From contig PBDA01000030.1 in assembly GCA_002718345.1 (NCBI GenBank), positions 1 through 64,000 on the forward strand: a stretch of 64,000 nucleotides of DNA, in the 5' to 3' direction. This document shows positions 2 through 55,286 of the stretch, in pieces (position 1 is the first letter of the stretch; the number at the start of each line of letters is the position of its first letter). Both the position numbers and the translations under genes were made by a program. The notes beneath the pieces are model-generated. The model saw only the letters and a list, made by a program, of their open reading frames with translations. It did no database searches and had not been told where the DNA came from. This DNA comes from Rhodospirillaceae bacterium. GTDB taxonomy: Bacteria > Pseudomonadota > Gammaproteobacteria > Steroidobacterales > Rariloculaceae.

Positions 2-439
2 ATAACCAAAAAGTTTTTTCTTGTTAGCTTAGGTATAGTGTTTGGAGTAATAACTTCTACGAGTTTTGCTCATCATGGTGATGCAGGGCGTTTTGAGGAA
101 GCCATTACAACATTGACTGGCACTGTAGTTGCGGTACAGCTTATAAATCCTCACTCTCGATTAATTTTTGATGTTGAAGAACATAATGGGCAGCTGGTCA
201 GGTGGCAGGCAGAATTCTCTAATGCAGCTGGTTTAGCAAGAATAGGTTGGACTACTGAGACCCTAAAAACTGGTGATGCAATTATAGTGGCTGGTCGTAC
301 TGTAAGAAGTGGAGCTCCCTATATAAATTTAAGTGAGCATGCAAGAATCTTTAAGTTAGAGACTTGCGAGGATATCTATCGTTCCGGGATGATTTTTGGC
401 GAACCTCCAGATTATCCTGCACCAGATTGCAGTCTTTAA
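2..439 (+). CDS. DUF6152-like secreted protein, 5' end cut by the window edge
   Basis: ORF 38..439; the frame stays open upstream to position 2 (ITKKFFLVSLGIVFGVITSTSFA-HHG), giving a signal-peptide-like start, so GTG at 38 is probably internal. Shares AHH, NPH and GD motifs with three other ORFs in the window. Confidence 0.75.
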   Translation: MTKKFFLVSLGIVFGVITSTSFAHHGDAGRFEEAITTLTGTVVAVQLINPHSRLIFDVEEHNGQLVRWQAEFSNAAGLARIGWTTETLKTGDAIIVAGRTVRSGAPYINLSEHARIFKLETCEDIYRSGMIFGEPPDYPAPDCSL

Positions 440-16748: not shown

Positions 16749-17117
16749 TTAGTATTTTTTCTTAATATTGCTTGCGGTTGACTCTCCTTCAGCATAGCCA
16801 GTCAGCAATGCTTCTATTAGATTCCGCAACGGGTCATCCTGTATAGGTTGATGTGCTGCTATAAATCCGGCTATTCGAGCATATACTAGTGGTTCCATTG
16901 AAATCCTTTCATAGCCTGTTATTGCGTTGTTGGTCTCATCGCAAGTTGTAGTTGCGCTGAGCGTTTGTCGAAACAAATTATCCAGGTAGTTATATAAGTT
17001 ATCTGTTGTGTTGCTATTATCTGTTTTTGTAGACGAGAGAAATTTTTGCGTTCGTTCTACAAATCGTTGGTAGTAGTCTTCTGCTAATGTTTCATCGCTT
17101 TCTATATCACCACACAT
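16749..17117 (-). CDS. Hypothetical 122 aa protein
   Basis: Intact ORF directly upstream of and co-oriented with the EutA-like gene; no family recognised. Confidence 0.5.
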   Translation of the reverse strand: MCGDIESDETLAEDYYQRFVERTQKFLSSTKTDNSNTTDNLYNYLDNLFRQTLSATTTCDETNNAITGYERISMEPLVYARIAGFIAAHQPIQDDPLRNLIEALLTGYAEGESTASNIKKKY

Positions 17118-17268
17118 TGTCGTATTCCTGTTAATTCATTGTTTATAAAAATTTGCTAGAACCTTCTTGGGTAGTTTACCTTTGACCAATATCATATTGC
17201 TGTATATTCAGCGGATATTTACAGAAGGGCGATGATAATATCTCTCCAAAAAGGGAGGAAATTAGGAG

Positions 17269-18315
17269 ATGTGGCCAGCAAAAAGACACCTGCTTGCGTT
17301 TTGTTCTTGCTTATTGATGTCTCAACTAGTTGTTGTGCCCATAAAGGCTGATGCCGTATCAGATTTTTATAAAGGGAGGCAGGTAAGGCTTTTGATCGGC
17401 TATAGTGCAGGTGGAGGGTATGATACCTACGCTCGCCTTCTTGCCAGACATTTGGGTAAGCACATACCAGGAAATCCAACAATTGTTCCGCAAAATATGC
17501 CGGGTGCGGGTAGCCTTACTTTGGCTAATTTTATATATAACGTTGCACCTAAAGATGGAAGTGTTATTGGAACATTTGCTCGTGGTATGGCTATGGAGCC
17601 ACTTTTATCAGGTATGGGCACGAGATTTAATGCTAACGAGTTTTCATGGATTGGTAGCTTGAACAACGAGGTCAGCGTTTGCGCTTCCTGGTATGAGTCA
17701 AATGTTAAGACTATGGAGGACTTGAATAATTATGAATTGATTGTAGGTGGAACAGGCTCAGGTGCTGACACTGATACCTTTCCTATAGTTATGGGTAACC
17801 TTATCACTCCCAATATAAAACTTATATCAGGTTACCCCGGTGGTAATGATGTGCTTCTAGCAATGGAGCGGGGTGAAGTAGATGGTCGCTGCGGTTGGTC
17901 TTGGTCTACAGTTGTTTCCAGGAGTAGTGACTGGTTAGCGGAGGGTCGAATAAATATTCTTGTGCAGTTAGCATTAGAAAAGCATCCTGATCTTCCCCAT
18001 ATCCCCTTAATTACAGAGTTTGCTGAGAACGATGATGAACTAATGGCGTTGGAATTGATTTTTGCACGTCAAGTTATGGGGCGACCGTATTTGGCACCAC
18101 CAGGTATTCCTATAGATCGGCTTACTGCCTTGAGAAATGCTTTTGAGGCAACAACTAATGATCCAGAATTTATCGCAGATGCAACACGTATTCAGCTTGA
18201 ACTCAATCCAGTTTCTGGTGAAGAGATAGATATTCTTATTTCGCGTATTTATGATGCTTCTGAAAATGCAGTTAGTCTTGCCTCTAAAGCAATTGTTAAG
18301 TCTGATGGGATGTGA
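17269..18315 (+). CDS. TctC-family substrate-binding protein
   Basis: Signal peptide; FYKGRQVRLLIGYSAGGGYDTYARLLARHLGKHIPGNPTIVPQNMPGAGSL. Confidence 0.92.
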   Translation: MWPAKRHLLAFCSCLLMSQLVVVPIKADAVSDFYKGRQVRLLIGYSAGGGYDTYARLLARHLGKHIPGNPTIVPQNMPGAGSLTLANFIYNVAPKDGSVIGTFARGMAMEPLLSGMGTRFNANEFSWIGSLNNEVSVCASWYESNVKTMEDLNNYELIVGGTGSGADTDTFPIVMGNLITPNIKLISGYPGGNDVLLAMERGEVDGRCGWSWSTVVSRSSDWLAEGRINILVQLALEKHPDLPHIPLITEFAENDDELMALELIFARQVMGRPYLAPPGIPIDRLTALRNAFEATTNDPEFIADATRIQLELNPVSGEEIDILISRIYDASENAVSLASKAIVKSDGM

Positions 18316-47461: not shown

Positions 47462-48508
47462 TTATTGAGGTAATGAAGCGATGTAGGCTGAGATATAGAG
47501 CATATCGTCAGCTGTAAGGTTAGTTACTACTGGTTCCATTAGAGGGCTTTCTCGCGTGCCCTGTTTGATATCCCAAAGCTGTCTCATGATATAACTAGCT
47601 GTTCGTCCTGCGATTCCAGGAATAAGGCCAAGTCCCATATGATCCTGACCATGGCAAATACCACACTGAATGGTTTTTCCACTTCCTGTTCTGACTAGAT
47701 CTTGACCTTTTTCAAGGCTACCTATTGGAACATATGCAATAAACCCACCTCTTGGATCACGCATCATTTCAGTTTTTTCGGGATCATCAGGGATTTCAAT
47801 TATGCGTTGTCCGAGAGGTATTTCTGGAGCGTTATCTATGGGTAGCATTAGACCGTTTGTGGTTGCTCTCACTTGAGGTGCAGTTTCTGACTCGATTACT
47901 TGGACCATGGGCTGATAACTCATTGATGAGTAGTACTCTGCAACTTCGATTTTTTCCTCGTTACTAAGACGACTGGCAATCCTAGCCATTACATTTGTAT
48001 TGGCTTTACGACTATCCGCACTTTTTCTTTTTCCATCTATGAAAGATTCAAGCTGTTGTAATATATAGTCTTTTGGTAAACCTGAGACATGACCATTTTC
48101 CATTTTTCCTTGGCCATTCGGATAATGACAAAGGGCGCATGCTTGTACACCTTCGGACTCTTTTCCATAAGCAACCACGTCTGGCATTACTGGATGGTCG
48201 TTTGGATACCAGTCAGCTGGACCATAACCAAAATAAGCCTCATTACGAGTAAATGTTAAATTTGTATCTGGAAGTGTTCTCTTAATTCCGTCATCTGGAA
48301 CTGGCGTACCAACATATCCGCATTCGATAGGTCTAGCATCTGGAGGGCAGGGTGGTGCTGTTCTATCTCCTTCGGTTAGTGGGCCTAATAGTCCATAAGC
48401 CCAGTTAGGCCAATCATCTGTGTGTTCAATAGATTGAGCAATTAGAGGCACACTTGTATAAAAATAAGCAAAAATTGTTAAAGTTATGAAATGTATTGAT
48501 CTCTTCAT
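47462..48508 (-). CDS. Secreted diheme cytochrome c
   Basis: Signal peptide; two haem motifs CALCHYPNGQG and CGICHGQDHMGLG. Confidence 0.88.
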   Translation of the reverse strand: MKRSIHFITLTIFAYFYTSVPLIAQSIEHTDDWPNWAYGLLGPLTEGDRTAPPCPPDARPIECGYVGTPVPDDGIKRTLPDTNLTFTRNEAYFGYGPADWYPNDHPVMPDVVAYGKESEGVQACALCHYPNGQGKMENGHVSGLPKDYILQQLESFIDGKRKSADSRKANTNVMARIASRLSNEEKIEVAEYYSSMSYQPMVQVIESETAPQVRATTNGLMLPIDNAPEIPLGQRIIEIPDDPEKTEMMRDPRGGFIAYVPIGSLEKGQDLVRTGSGKTIQCGICHGQDHMGLGLIPGIAGRTASYIMRQLWDIKQGTRESPLMEPVVTNLTADDMLYISAYIASLPQ

Positions 48509-48550: not shown

Positions 48551-49216
48551 TTACTTAGGTACCTGATCACATTCATATTCATAAAAATGTGCATCAGGAG
48601 ATAGACCCCAGATATGTGTTGTGTGCCAAGGCTCGTTATAGTGTATTGGGTCTGTAATTGTCATTTCTATCTGAAGCGTTTTATCATCCAGGCGCGTAAA
48701 TTTTTCAATAATTTCAGTTGATTCGCTAAGCGGTAAGCCTTCCCAAAAGTAGCTGACGCCGCGCAAACCATATGTTTTAACCACTAGGGTTTCATCTTCC
48801 CATTGCCCATTAGAATGACCCATCCATGTTGAACCAACCTCAGTTGGTACATTACGACCATCCATAAAAATTCTTCGGACTTGGTGGTATGCCTCGAATA
48901 GTATCCATATGCGTTCTTCTGATTGAATTATCTCTATGCTAGTTGGAGCCCACGCTATCATTGCACGTGGCATATAAACGATACATCTTAGATATGGGTC
49001 ATTAGCAATATCAAATTCATCTTGAGCAGTCCTTCCTGCGAGCGTAAATGGCGGATTAACGGGAAGAATCTGGCTAATATCGCGTTGTGGTCTCCATATT
49101 CCTTCTATATTACCTTCAGCTTGAGTGTATTTAACGCTCAATATAGATATTGAAAAAAGTAAAATTACTAAAAATTTCTTTTGAAACAGATAATAGTTCA
49201 CGATTATTCTTGCCAA
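48551..49216 (-). CDS. Secreted protein of unknown function ('partner domain' of DUF6152-like genes)
   Basis: Shares (R)RI..DGR, WEDETLVV, EKF/ITDP pattern with 49836..50882 C-terminus and 50897..51778. Confidence 0.65.
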   Translation of the reverse strand: MARIIVNYYLFQKKFLVILLFSISILSVKYTQAEGNIEGIWRPQRDISQILPVNPPFTLAGRTAQDEFDIANDPYLRCIVYMPRAMIAWAPTSIEIIQSEERIWILFEAYHQVRRIFMDGRNVPTEVGSTWMGHSNGQWEDETLVVKTYGLRGVSYFWEGLPLSESTEIIEKFTRLDDKTLQIEMTITDPIHYNEPWHTTHIWGLSPDAHFYEYECDQVPK

Positions 49217-49218
49217 AA

Positions 49219-49638
49219 CTATAAGAATGGTACTTCTAGAACAGGACTTCCTCTTTGCATTTCATAGCCATTAGGGAAGAGTATCCAGTTTAGTCGCATT
49301 TCTGGTTCACCATGTCTAGATGGATGACCCCTAACCTTTATAAAATCACCAGGTTTTAATGAGTCATGGGAGAGCCCACCTTCTCTGTAAAATGTTGTCA
49401 CTGCAGCGCTTTCTATTAACCATCTTTCTATTTCCCCGTTCTGATTAGTAACATCTATATAAATAAGCACATGAGGATTTCTAAATTCATACTGAGTAAC
49501 GGTTCCCTCAATTGAGGATTCTTGGTTTGGGTCAAAGTGGTTAGTAAAACCATGATGTGCAACAACAGAATTAAAAGAAAAGCCAAACATAAGGGTTATG
49601 TATACAGGCCTAGGTATATTTAGAAATCTAATATTCAT
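49219..49638 (-). CDS. DUF6152-like secreted protein
   Basis: VVAHHGFTNHFDPNQESSIEGTVTQYEFRNPHVLIYIDV...LKPGDFIKVRGHPSR. Confidence 0.75.
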   Translation of the reverse strand: MNIRFLNIPRPVYITLMFGFSFNSVVAHHGFTNHFDPNQESSIEGTVTQYEFRNPHVLIYIDVTNQNGEIERWLIESAAVTTFYREGGLSHDSLKPGDFIKVRGHPSRHGEPEMRLNWILFPNGYEMQRGSPVLEVPFL

Positions 49639-49835
49639 TAATGAACCTTATGAAACAATAAAACTCGCTAATATATGTCACAGTAATATCGAAAATAGTC
49701 ACAATGGAAACTAAGGTCAAGTCTGTTTTTGTCTGCAAAAAGTTTAATTAATTAGTATTTTAATAATTAAGCAAGAGAAAGTTAGATGATTTGTTAAACT
49801 TATTCAAAGAGAACCTATATTGGGTGGAGAATTAT

Positions 49836-50882
49836 ATGCTTATCAGGATTGCCGGATTAATTCTCGTATTGAGTATCTCAACTTCTGCAAGCGCTCATCA
49901 TGCAGTCGGTGCAAGGTATAACATGGATGATTTAATTGAGGTTGAAGGTGAGGTTACCGAGGTATTAATAAGAAACCCGCATTCTCAAATTGGAATTCGC
50001 CGAATTGCCGACAATGGAGCTATAGAGAACTGGAGAATGGCTACTACAGCTGTTAGCAATATGCGCAGATGGCAAATTGACCCTTCTTTTGTCCAGGTTG
50101 GAGATATTGTTCGGGTGGCGGGATACCTTTCACGTTTTGATGATAATGATCTTTATTTTACAAATCTTTTGACAGCTAACGGTTACGAAGTGTTTTTAGA
50201 CAGAAATGCAACATCTATTTGGACAGATCAAACAATAGAGATGTCCGCTAGTCGTCGGCGTAGTATTGGGTCGATTACAGCACCCGAACTTGGAATTTTT
50301 CGTATTTGGAGTACGCCCGATAACATTCCAATGCTAATGCCCCGTAACATTGGAAAAACAACTGAGGGACGGGCTAATCTAACTTCTGATGCACTCCAGG
50401 CACAGGACTCATATGTGCGGGACAGAGATAATCCTCTGCAAAATTGCACGCCTAAAGGCATGCCATTGATTATGGAGGCTCCTTATCCCTTTGAGATGTA
50501 CAGAGATGGCTCTAATATCATTTGGCATAACGAGGAGTATGACACTCGTCGAACTATACATATAGATACATCTGATCCGGGTGAAGTAGAGCCTTCTATA
50601 CTTGGTTATTCAGTTGGTGTTTGGGAGGACGAGTACAATCTGATTGTTACCACTACTCATATTAGTTGGGGGCATCTCGATGGCCAGGGGATTCCTTTAA
50701 GCTTGTCTGCTGAAGTAGTCGAGAAATTTAGCGTAAGTGCTCAAGGAGACAGGCTAGATTATGAAATAACTATTGTTGATCCTGTGAATCTGGTCGAGCC
50801 AGTAAGTTTCTCTAAACATTGGGTTTGGTATCCAGATGCTGAAGTTGGAGAATACAATTGTACTATTGAGGCAGAGAATTAG
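49836..50882 (+). CDS. DUF6152-like domain fused to partner domain, secreted
   Basis: ASAHHAVGARYNMDDLIEVEGEVTEVLIRNPHSQIGI (N-terminal) then RRTIHIDT...GVWEDEYNLIVTTTHISW...EKFSVSAQGDRLDYEITIVDPV (C-terminal). ORF opens at 49791; ATG at 49836 precedes the signal peptide. Confidence 0.75.
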   Translation: MLIRIAGLILVLSISTSASAHHAVGARYNMDDLIEVEGEVTEVLIRNPHSQIGIRRIADNGAIENWRMATTAVSNMRRWQIDPSFVQVGDIVRVAGYLSRFDDNDLYFTNLLTANGYEVFLDRNATSIWTDQTIEMSASRRRSIGSITAPELGIFRIWSTPDNIPMLMPRNIGKTTEGRANLTSDALQAQDSYVRDRDNPLQNCTPKGMPLIMEAPYPFEMYRDGSNIIWHNEEYDTRRTIHIDTSDPGEVEPSILGYSVGVWEDEYNLIVTTTHISWGHLDGQGIPLSLSAEVVEKFSVSAQGDRLDYEITIVDPVNLVEPVSFSKHWVWYPDAEVGEYNCTIEAEN

Positions 50883-50896
50883 AATAATTACATAAG

Positions 50897-51778
50897 ATGC
50901 TGAAATATAAAAATATGTTGTTTTTTAATTATATGCTTTGTCTTCATATAGTTCATTTGTCTGTTATTCGGTCAATTATTTATAAATGTAAACAGGGTTT
51001 GTTCTTATGGTTTTTTTCTAAGTTATGTATGGCGCAATCATTAGTATCTTATGAACAATTACCTGACTGGAGTGGTGTTTGGCAAATGAATGGATCGACT
51101 GTGTTTGATGCCTCTAGTGTACAGCCTGAAGGCGGTCGGGCTGGGTCAGCTGGTGTAAGAGAATTTCCACCGTATAACGAAGAATGGGAGGCCATTTATG
51201 AAGATAATATGGAACAAGTGAGTTTAGGACGTTTTCCTGACCCATTATCGATTTGTGGTACTCCAGCGGGTTATCCGCGCATGTTAAATGTACCAGGCGC
51301 AATAGAATTTGTTGTGCGACCTGAGCAAGTATGGATTCTTACCGAAGATGGACCAAGTATTGCAAGAATTTATACAGATGGACGTAGTCACCCTCCAGAA
51401 GATGAAATCTGGCCGACATATAGCGGTGAATCAGTGGGATATTGGGAAGGTGATACTTTAGTTTTTGAAACTATAGGCATAAAGGGTAAGGGTGACGCAA
51501 TAATTGATCGTACTGGCTTAGTCTTAAGTGTTGATGCACGTATAAAGACGGAGATTCGCAGGGTCGATATTAGTACCATGGAAGCTCAAATTGAGATAAC
51601 AGACAGCACTGCAATGACTGAGTCTTGGGTTGTCACAAAGCGTTACGGTAAGCTAGAAGATGGTGCTCGAATGTTTGATGTAGCATGTGTTGAAAATAAT
51701 CGTAATCCCATTGATGAAACTGGAAGAACATTAACCTTGGATTCGCAAGGTAATATTTTAGATTCAGGAGTTAATTGA
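50897..51778 (+). CDS. Secreted/anchored partner-domain protein
   Basis: DWSGVWQMNG..., CGTPAGYPRML, ARIYTDGRSHP, GYWEGDTLVFET, EIRRVDISTMEAQIEITDS. Confidence 0.65.
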   Translation: MLKYKNMLFFNYMLCLHIVHLSVIRSIIYKCKQGLFLWFFSKLCMAQSLVSYEQLPDWSGVWQMNGSTVFDASSVQPEGGRAGSAGVREFPPYNEEWEAIYEDNMEQVSLGRFPDPLSICGTPAGYPRMLNVPGAIEFVVRPEQVWILTEDGPSIARIYTDGRSHPPEDEIWPTYSGESVGYWEGDTLVFETIGIKGKGDAIIDRTGLVLSVDARIKTEIRRVDISTMEAQIEITDSTAMTESWVVTKRYGKLEDGARMFDVACVENNRNPIDETGRTLTLDSQGNILDSGVN

Positions 51779-52173
51779 ATCCGATGATAACTTTGCAATA
51801 TAGAAAAATTTCTCAATATTTGGCTATCCTTTTGCTGCAGTTTTTTTATCCTACAGCGATCGCACATCACTCAGGAAACATGTTTGATCGTGAACAGATT
51901 GTAGAGTTGGTTGGTATAGTCAGAGAGTTCCAGTGGACAAGCCCCCATATATGGATACAAGTTTTAGTTATCTCTGAAACAGGTATAACAGAAGAATGGA
52001 GTATTGAAGGAGGAGTGCCAAATAGGCTATTTCGATCTGGGTGGAGACCAAATACATTTAAGCCCGGTCATCAAGTAATACTCCAAGCTTACCCTATGCG
52101 TGATGGCGCAAGAGCTGGATTGTTTATTGGTGCAAAACTTAATGATGGGTCAATTCTGGGTGAATTTAATTAA
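51775..52173 (+). CDS. DUF6152-like secreted protein
   Basis: AIAHHSGNMFDREQIVELVGIVREFQWTSPHIWIQV...FKPGHQVILQAYPMRDG; 4-nt overlap with preceding ORF. Confidence 0.72.
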   Translation: MNPMITLQYRKISQYLAILLLQFFYPTAIAHHSGNMFDREQIVELVGIVREFQWTSPHIWIQVLVISETGITEEWSIEGGVPNRLFRSGWRPNTFKPGHQVILQAYPMRDGARAGLFIGAKLNDGSILGEFN

Positions 52174-52890: not shown

Positions 52891-53988
52891 TTGAAACGAC
52901 GTGAATTTTTAGGTGGTTTAGGTGGTGGAACTGCTTTGGCAGCATGCACACCTACGCCTCAGCCTAATGTGTATTTGGCTGATACAGGTTCTCAGGAGCA
53001 ATTTTCTTGGCGTATGGTTACTACCTGGCCAAAAAATTTTCCAGGTCTTGGGACTGGTGTTAATACTGTTGTTAAATATATAAATGAGTTGAGCGGTGGA
53101 AGACTTAATATCACGGTCTACGGCTCGGGTGAATTAGTACCTGCATTTGAGGTATTTGATGCAGTATCTTTGGGAGCTGCAGAAATAGGGCATAGCCCCT
53201 CGTATTATTGGCTTGGAAAGAGCCAAGCAGCACAATTTTTCACAACTCTTCCATTTGGTATGACAGCACATGAGCATAATGCATGGCTTTACTATGGGGG
53301 TGGTATGGATTTGTGGAGAGAGTTTTATGAGCCATTTAATTTAGTACCCTTCCCTGTTGGGAATACAGGGGTGCAGATGGGGGGGTGGTTTAATAAGTCT
53401 ATCAATACAATCGACGATCTTCAGGGTCTAAAAATTAGAATGCCTGGGCTCGCTGGAGAAGTTTTGCGTCGGGCTGGCGCAATACCTGTAAATATGCCTA
53501 ATTCAGAGATATTTACAGCGCTTCAAACTGGTGCAATCGATGCCGCTGAATGGGTAAGTCCCTATAACGATCAAGCTATGGGATTACAGCAAGCAGCGCA
53601 ATATTATTACTATCCTGGTTGGCAAGAGCCTGGACCAGCAATCGAGTGCATAGTTAATAAAGAGGCATGGGACTCTTTGCCCGCTGACCTGCAAGCAATT
53701 ATTCGTGTTGCTTGCCAAGCAGCTGTAGTTGATATGACATCTGAGTTCATGGCCCGTAATGCTTATGCATTGCAAGAACTCATTGATGATGGCGGTGTTG
53801 AATTACGTGAATATCCGCAGTCATTACTGATCGAGCTTAAGAGGTTAACCTTTGAGGTGGTTGAAGAACTGGCCGAGAATGACCCTCAAGTTGCCAAGGT
53901 TTGGGATTCATATCGAGAATTTATGGAATTATCTCGTGGCTGGCAAGCAATCTCAGAGCAGTCATATTTAGAGACCCAAGAACTCTGA
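52891..53988 (+). CDS. TRAP transporter DctP/TakP-like substrate-binding protein, Tat-type signal
   Basis: MKRREFLGGLGGGTALAAC; WRMVTTWPKNFPGLGTG, GLKIRMPGLAGEVLRRAGAIPVNMPNSEIFTALQTGAIDAAEWVSPYND. Confidence 0.88.
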   Translation: MKRREFLGGLGGGTALAACTPTPQPNVYLADTGSQEQFSWRMVTTWPKNFPGLGTGVNTVVKYINELSGGRLNITVYGSGELVPAFEVFDAVSLGAAEIGHSPSYYWLGKSQAAQFFTTLPFGMTAHEHNAWLYYGGGMDLWREFYEPFNLVPFPVGNTGVQMGGWFNKSINTIDDLQGLKIRMPGLAGEVLRRAGAIPVNMPNSEIFTALQTGAIDAAEWVSPYNDQAMGLQQAAQYYYYPGWQEPGPAIECIVNKEAWDSLPADLQAIIRVACQAAVVDMTSEFMARNAYALQELIDDGGVELREYPQSLLIELKRLTFEVVEELAENDPQVAKVWDSYREFMELSRGWQAISEQSYLETQEL

Positions 53989-53998
53989 TTTATTAAGA

Positions 53999-54640
53999 AT
54001 GAATAGCATTCATGATATGGGGGGGCTTACCTGTTTTGGTCAAGTTAAATATGATGAAGATGAGCCAGTTTTCCATCATGAGTGGGAACAAAAGGTTCTA
54101 GCAATAACTGTCGCCACTTCTTCACTTTTCGGTCCCTTGGATAAAAGAAGACATGTTTTAGAGAAGATAGGGTCAATTGATTACCTGAAGTCTAGTTATT
54201 ATGAGCGATGGTTAATTAGATTAGAGCTTTCACTAAATGAATTAACAGCTATTAATCAGTATCAAAGTACAGAGTCTGAATATGAGTCTATTGACTTTAA
54301 GGAGCTTGAGCATGCTATTTATAATGGGCGACCCTCCGATCGAACTGAAGGTAGGCAGACACCAATATTTTCTGTAGGTGACAGAATACGCACAAAAAAC
54401 ATCAACCCATCCGGTCATACTAGATTAGCACGGTATGTGCGTGGTAGATGTGGTTTTATAGATAGAGTGCATGGAACTCATTCTTTTCCGGATACTGCTG
54501 CTCATGGTGAAGGGGAAAATCCCCAACCTTTATATTCAGTACGTTTTACAGCAAAAGAACTTTGGGGCGCAGAAAAATATCCCACAGATAATTTGTATAT
54601 AGACTTATGGGAAGATTATTTGGAGCCACTAGATGTCTGA
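53999..54640 (+). CDS. nthB: Nitrile hydratase beta subunit
   Basis: [91 protein letters not shown]. Confidence 0.93.
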
Positions 54641-55286
54641 TCATTTTCATAAACATGACCAGGATACTGTGTTAATTAAAGAAAGGTCTGAACAGGAAAT
54701 TGCAGGGCTAACAAAAAGGGTAGAGAAATTAGAAAAATTTTTAATTCAAAAGGGAATAGTTTCAAAAGACTTGTTAGAAAGTGTTGCTAACATATATGAG
54801 AATGATTTAGGCCCCTTAAATGGTGCTAAGGTTATAGCGCGTGCTTGGTGTGATCCATCTTATAAAAAACGCTTATTAGATGATGCTACTAAAGCAATAA
54901 AAGAAATGGGTTTTGGGGGGCTACAAGGTGAGCATATGGTAGTGCTCGAAAATACACCTATTATTCACAATGTTGTTGTATGCTCATTGTGTTCTTGTTA
55001 CCCATGGCCTGTACTTGGGCTGCCTCCTGGTTGGTATAAGGATCCTGCATATAGATCTAGAATTGTCATTCACCCAAGAGATGTACTTAAGGAATTTGGA
55101 TTAAATCTTTGTGATTCAGTTGAGGTTCGTGTTTGGGATAGCAGTGCTGAGGTCCGTTATCTAGTGTTACCAGAAAGACCTTTAAAAACAGAAAAGTTCT
55201 GTGAAGAAGATCTGGTAAAGCTTGTTACTAGGGAAGCTATGATCGGAGTTGCAAAAGCAAAGGATCCTTTTTTTAGTGAAACATAA
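54633..55286 (+). CDS. nthA: Nitrile hydratase alpha subunit
   Basis: Metal-site motif [42 protein letters not shown]. Confidence 0.94.

Follow-up and report, generated by a model that had tools for sequence, protein, structure and literature searches.

Could a family of small secreted proteins carry a metal site that comes into being only when the signal peptide is removed? This question is raised by a 64,000-nucleotide stretch of DNA (hereafter, the window) on contig C22, in the 2.29 Mb draft assembly of a member of Candidatus Rariloculaceae. An earlier note on this DNA had read four of its gene products as DUF6152-like proteins whose mature N-termini begin with two histidines, and had suggested that they could form a histidine brace with copper.

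DUF6152 proteins in the window

All four open reading frames are present where the note had placed them, and the products of all four match Pfam family PF19649 (DUF6152) above its cut-off of 27 bits. In proteins 1 to 4, respectively, the signal peptides end in SFA, VVA, ASA and AIA directly before a His-His pair (HH), and a conserved (N/S)PH motif follows as INPH, RNPH, RNPH and SPH, its His being mature residue 28 or 29. The features of the locus are the following:

2..439, + strand: DUF6152 protein 1 (PF19649, 63.5 bits, E 1.9e-17); signal peptide ending TSTSFA before HH (71-76); INPH His, residue 28, at 152-154
47462..48508, - strand: diheme c-type cytochrome (PF00034, PF13442), third gene of the minus-strand cluster
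48551..49216, - strand: partner protein (own signal peptide), its gene immediately following that of protein 2
49219..49638, - strand: DUF6152 protein 2 (73.7 bits, E 1.3e-20); signal peptide ending FNSVVA before HH (codons 49552-49557); NPH at 49471-49479
49836..50882, + strand: DUF6152 protein 3, a fusion with a partner domain (51.1 bits, E 1.5e-13; local profiles for both domains); HH at 49896-49901; NPH at 49974-49982; partner domain at about 50343-50864; start ATG 49836, first listed start TTG 49791
50897..51778, + strand: free-standing partner protein (partner profile, E 6.7e-41)
51775..52173, + strand: DUF6152 protein 4 (102.8 bits, E 1.2e-29), used for the AlphaFold2 model; HH at 51865-51870; SPH at 51940-51948; Glu48 at 52006-52008

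The gene of protein 1 has its 5' end at the contig edge, so that its upstream side is cut off. The remaining genes are arranged as DUF6152, partner and diheme cytochrome on the minus strand and as fusion, partner and DUF6152 on the plus strand, where the 3' end of the free-standing partner gene overlaps the start of the protein 4 gene by 4 bp. Near this cluster, a gene for a TRAP-type DctP binding protein (52891-53988) stands directly before those of the nitrile hydratase beta and alpha subunits (53999-55286), the alpha subunit having a CSLCSC motif.

The gene context described in the earlier note was confirmed. The diheme c-type cytochrome does adjoin the cluster, and between 33489 and 46979 the window holds a cytochrome c oxidase cluster (SURF1, COX2 with a cytochrome c domain, COX1, CtaG and COX3, at 33.5-39.1 kb) followed by apparent alternative complex III genes. 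The oxidase cluster is about 10 kb away; the link of DUF6152 to it and to the cytochrome is weak. Counts within the source genome gave no clear enrichment of c-type cytochromes or PQQ dehydrogenases near DUF6152; both recur near the family in relatives, an observation dropped as evidence in view of these counts. The nearness to the copper oxidase cluster was also dropped.

Conservation and predicted exposure of the His-His N-terminus

Counts in the source genome were made on the stretches around matches. This genome encodes 57 DUF6152 domains, and in 57/57 HH stands right after a signal peptide-like leader, with an xPH motif some 25-30 residues after HH in every copy. The residue preceding HH (-1) is Ala in 36, Gly in 8, Ser in 7, Thr in 5 and Cys in 1 of them. 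Since the contigs of relatives had been collected with a consensus protein as query, which biases the sample toward the widespread subfamily, the invariance of HH was assessed with a profile of mature residues ~10 to 99, from which the first nine residues were left out, run on 286 loci. With this N-terminus-free profile, HH was found at the expected place in 369 of 372 distinct relatives, in agreement with the family-wide conservation on which the earlier reading depended. The three exceptions are a truncated sequence, a sequence whose reading frame is altered, and L110, which has HH but lacks PH. The second motif is NPH in 349 of the 369 members and xPH in the remainder, and both A|HHGW (the bar marking the expected cut) and xPH are retained in divergent single-copy members taken from an even draw of Pseudomonadota genomes. 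In the 369-row alignment, H1, H2, P27 and H28 are conserved at 100%, G68 at 99%, G59 at 97%, N26 at 95%, G17 and W45 at 94% and E48 at 91%.

The sequence context also agrees with cleavage immediately before HH. The residues at -1 and -3 suit signal peptidase I in 98% of the 369 members, with Ala at -1 in 88%, and the strict pattern [AV]xA occurs at HH in 66% of them as against no more than 19% at any other offset tested. A hydrophobic core is found in 97.5% of members. A cut at another place, such as +5 (S-F-A|A), would instead make HH a part of the leader. A loose small-residue site does exist at +5 (86% by a lax rule, with Ala at -1 in 195/369), but the strict pattern falls there to 10%, the site is poor in the four proteins of the window, and the stretch of highest hydrophobicity stops 4-9 residues (median 6) before HH. 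Such a cut would moreover throw away two invariant residues, when leaders are not conserved and HH is invariant, and we regard it as very improbable. Cleavage before HH is also what the fusions would lead one to expect: among 62 DUF6152-partner fusions, DUF6152 comes first in 62/62 and no tandem DUF6152 was found, as a requirement for a free N-terminus would imply. The CopC protein of the same genome, whose signal peptide ends in AQA before a His at which the CopC profile begins, offers an in-genome comparison for an N-terminal His that would be made by the peptidase. The genes of CopC and CopD lie at L306 4684-5925 (contig C26), and the same short contig has two DUF6152 genes.

Predicted fold and candidate metal site

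Mature protein 4 and 144 relatives were used as AlphaFold2 input, and the resulting model (pLDDT 93.1, pTM 0.84) is an OB-fold, with strands 13-23, 30-36 and 42-48, a helix at 52-57 and strands 70-78 and 84-92 in the order of that fold. Foldseek against the PDB returned the OB-folds of SSB, PriB and Lys-tRNA synthetase at E ~2e-3 (best 1.8e-3), a likeness at fold level only. Sequence searches yielded no solved structure of a DUF6152 relative, and PriB appeared in the profile search at a non-significant E of 0.12.

Coevolution was computed on 369 sequences (Neff 304). A first run gave high scores between invariant columns, which were considered an artefact, and near-invariant columns were then removed. 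The analysis recovers the ladder between strands b2 and b3 (pairs 30-46, 32-46, 34-42 and 34-44), and its register puts residue 28 opposite residue ~48, that is, H28 against E48. The pairs F7-E48 (rank 13), M6-W30 (rank 15) and F7-G85 (rank 17), recovered in 21, 20 and 26 of 30 bootstraps, respectively, suggest that the N-terminal segment runs close to His28 and Glu48. Such a placement supports a shared site but does not prove a coordination distance.

Taken together, the cleavage context, the invariance of HH and the placement of mature residues 4-7 beside the strands of the PH His and Glu48 leave the histidine-brace reading of the earlier note unrefuted and partly support it; its link to the oxidase and the cytochrome is weak. 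DUF6152 is a real candidate metalloprotein family, so far uncharacterised, in which a brace is plausible rather than proven. The best reading is that a metal is probably held by His1 and His28, perhaps with His2 or Glu48. Copper would be the metal with a probability slightly better than even, since it is usual in such sites, yet nickel was preferred in sister classes such as DUF4198 and DUF6702.

Expansion of the family and its companions

Genomes of the same family contain from 4 to at least 69 scored DUF6152 copies, and up to 192 first-look candidates per genome, while the other families of the order have mostly zero. Ca. Rariloculus versatilis (L098, genome G060) agrees in its coordinates with G020, a genome of the same family, which identifies that family as Ca. 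Rariloculaceae. A Bryobacterales genome has 57 copies and another acidobacterial genome at least 69. DUF6152 occurs in 42/399 genomes drawn from the phylum, nearly always as a single copy. Two DUF6152-bearing contigs (L055 and L127) come from MAGs titled 'Bordetella parapertussis' and 'Klebsiella pneumoniae', which look like mislabelled environmental bins.

Within the source genome the best paralogue has a median identity of 47%. Some copies have congeneric orthologues that are ~69-93% identical, as against 35-64% for the next paralogue, and the three members at 49-52 kb of the window are kept as a set in genome G003 with 76-88% identity. That copies so old and distinct have been kept suggests that their substrates or partners differ. 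Numbers of up to about 190 candidates in a genome argue against a simple copper carrier, and a high copy number with long-kept orthologues suits substrate diversity better than one such carrier.

The partner domain is present in 52 copies in the source genome. A same-strand DUF6152 gene lies within 1.5 kb of 50/52 partners and, reciprocally, 46/57 DUF6152 genes have a same-strand partner within that distance (4-5% expected in both cases); the binomial test of this pairing counts clustered genes as independent and is indicative only. Neither the partner family nor the 57-fold expansion figures in the earlier note; new here are the pairing with this family, the second companion described below and the DUF6644 context of single-copy relatives. 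The partner protein had no convincing match in Pfam. Its AlphaFold2 model (pLDDT 90.3) has CRABP, CRBP and FABP as top Foldseek matches in the PDB (best E 5.3e-4, TM ~0.4-0.64, a fold-level likeness only), and almost all of the best 50 structural matches listed are of this kind. Two Cys, an Arg, a Glu, an Asp and a Gly are invariant or nearly so. Judging from the predicted fold, the barrel might hold a hydrophobic ligand, an idea to which we give somewhat less than even weight.

A second companion family of ~230 aa, with 10 copies in the source genome and no Pfam match, accompanies 7 of the 11 DUF6152 genes that have no partner. Its genes are mostly neighbours of HHSHxNY-type DUF6152 genes; they were located at L009 1815-2504 and, in the source genome, on contigs C37, C40, C59, C27, C38, C20, C12 and C48, where the C48 copy (16846-17481) has two in-frame stops. 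NHL-repeat propellers also recur near DUF6152 (12 loci, 6 of them in the source genome, e.g., L225 8177-9364), and a gene for a 763-residue CBM9-like/DUF5916 protein (L307 1157-3445, contig C8 of the source genome) adjoins a large cluster of DUF6152, DUF6644 and partner genes.

Single-copy loci and alternative readings

In single-copy-type loci, a DUF6644 membrane protein is encoded within 3 kb in 20/23 cases, and directly downstream of DUF6152 in Paracoccus denitrificans, Caballeronia, Comamonas and Sinorhizobium. The Sinorhizobium neighbour is annotated as DUF2214, and a Pfam scan of the same protein gives DUF6644. DUF6644 has an invariant His and a weak likeness to CopD (hhalign probability 31% over 64 columns), so that its putative homology with CopD is weakly supported. 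A DUF6644 gene is also found between two DUF6152 genes in the source genome.

CopC is thought to hand its metal to CopD, and DUF6152 could act comparably in metal capture and delivery, using its N-terminal His to bind an ion (Cu, Ni or another) that it would pass to DUF6644 or to enzymes. The DUF6644 pairing in single-copy species, the invariant His of DUF6644 and its weak CopD-like profile all favour trafficking, and bacterial brace derivatives are mostly tied to copper transport (PMC10952591). However, 57 to ~190 divergent copies per genome are far beyond the needs of metal import, only a few copies of the source genome stand beside DUF6644, and most are paired instead with an apparent ligand-binding barrel; the genome also has a separate CopC-CopD pair. 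We consider metal delivery rather unlikely.

With no metal bound, HH and PH could be structural, form a surface for binding the companion, or be needed at the N-terminus for sorting or processing. The pairing with companions is indeed very strong, and in the model the PH motif is part of the turn between b1 and b2, where it may have a structural role. Three invariant His with few other invariant residues, at an N-terminus generated by a peptidase, are nevertheless hard to explain by packing alone, and these His are kept in single-copy members that sit with DUF6644 and not with the partner, which makes a family devoid of metal improbable. Alternatively, the His cluster could bind haem or another cofactor, in the way of the haem chaperone CcmE, which has an OB-fold. 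An OB-fold, a periplasmic location, invariant His and the diheme cytochrome adjoining the cluster of the window would all agree with this, but CcmE, unlike DUF6152, relies on one His close to its C-terminus, and c-type cytochromes are not clearly enriched near the family in the source genome, so that haem binding seems hardly credible. A metal site built on the free N-terminus thus remains the preferred reading.

Proposed mechanism

From the sequences, their invariance, the cleavage-site context, the predicted folds, the pairing and the expansion computed here, we propose that DUF6152 carries a metal site on an OB-fold and acts with a companion as a periplasmic oxidation module. The site of the secreted protein would form only once signal peptidase exposes His1. 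The metal, most likely copper, would be bound by His1 together with the N-terminal amine, by the histidine of the PH motif (His28 of protein 4) and probably also by His2 or Glu48, much as in a histidine brace. In expanded lineages, each DUF6152 would act with its companion, usually the FABP/retinoid-binding-like barrel, which would hold a small hydrophobic molecule, the substrate differing between pairs; electrons could come from c-type cytochromes. In single-copy lineages, DUF6152 would work with DUF6644, perhaps for metal delivery. We advance the proposal as a whole tentatively, its chances falling just short of even.

Catalysis rather than trafficking is in itself possible and rather doubtful. 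The many diverse copies and the ligand-type barrels favour substrate-specific chemistry, and this chemistry and trafficking could both be true in different branches of the family. In its boldest form, which is unlikely, the proposal would make DUF6152 and its barrel a new class of periplasmic copper oxygenases, with a brace-type site on an OB-fold and a specificity given by interchangeable FABP-like barrels, the class having multiplied in Rariloculaceae and Bryobacterales to dozens or hundreds of variants that would oxidise many small hydrophobic compounds.

Comparison with known systems

The exposure of an N-terminal His by signal peptidase is the basis of both the histidine brace and the signal-strapping discovery (PMC10952591, PMC12537917). 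In copper histidine-brace proteins (LPMOs, CopC, the pMMO site, X325/Bim1), an N-terminal His is combined with a second His, as is predicted for DUF6152, and the signal peptide must be cut before copper is bound (PMC10952591). Membership in two of these groups was rejected: no LPMO match was found in Pfam or NCBIfam and the predicted OB-fold differs from the immunoglobulin-like sandwich, and the window proteins had no match to CopC (PF04234), a true CopC being encoded elsewhere in the genome.

A literature search by name found no paper naming DUF6152 or DUF6644, and the accessible part of the signal-strapping paper gave no sign of DUF6152 when examined for DUF names and the motif AHH (PMC12537917). 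Signal strapping found the N-terminal-His metalloproteins DUF4198, DUF6702, Ang-1 and Ang-2, nickel being preferred in DUF4198 and DUF6702 and the anglerases being proposed for metal capture or delivery (PMC12537917). DUF6152, judged by sequence only, resembles this class in being secreted and in having an N-terminal His after the signal peptide and further candidate metal-binding residues. It differs in fold, being a predicted OB-fold with HH, whereas beta-sandwiches are found in DUF6702 and the anglerases and a further fold in DUF4198; it differs also in its fusions, which were found with the partner barrel, whereas anglerases are appended to permeases (PMC12537917).

Among OB-folds, the closest comparison is with the periplasmic Cu(I)/Ag(I) chaperones CusF and SilF, small barrels that DUF6152 resembles at fold level only (PMC10656224). 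The SilF ligands are His, Trp, Met and Met within the chain (PMC10656224), whereas DUF6152 would use its N-terminus and has no conserved Met among 369 members. SilF and CusF have been called the only OB-fold proteins with metal ion binding as sole function (PMC10656224), hence an OB-fold with an N-terminal-His site would be a new variant.

The gene context offers two further parallels. CopC-CopD associates a periplasmic N-terminal-His protein with a small membrane protein having a conserved His, as does DUF6152-DUF6644 in single-copy species, the families being different. The partner is predicted to share the antiparallel beta barrel of the FABP, CRABP and CRBP calycins and is unlike them in being secreted, in its two conserved Cys, in the lack of detected sequence similarity and in having no Pfam family.

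DUF6152 occurs in both Acidobacteriota and Pseudomonadota, with a strong expansion in some genomes and with two unnamed companion families, so that a function found for one pair could be the first for a very large number of genes. The class of N-terminal-His metalloproteins is young and still growing, and DUF6152 would add to it an OB-fold member not described in the literature checked.
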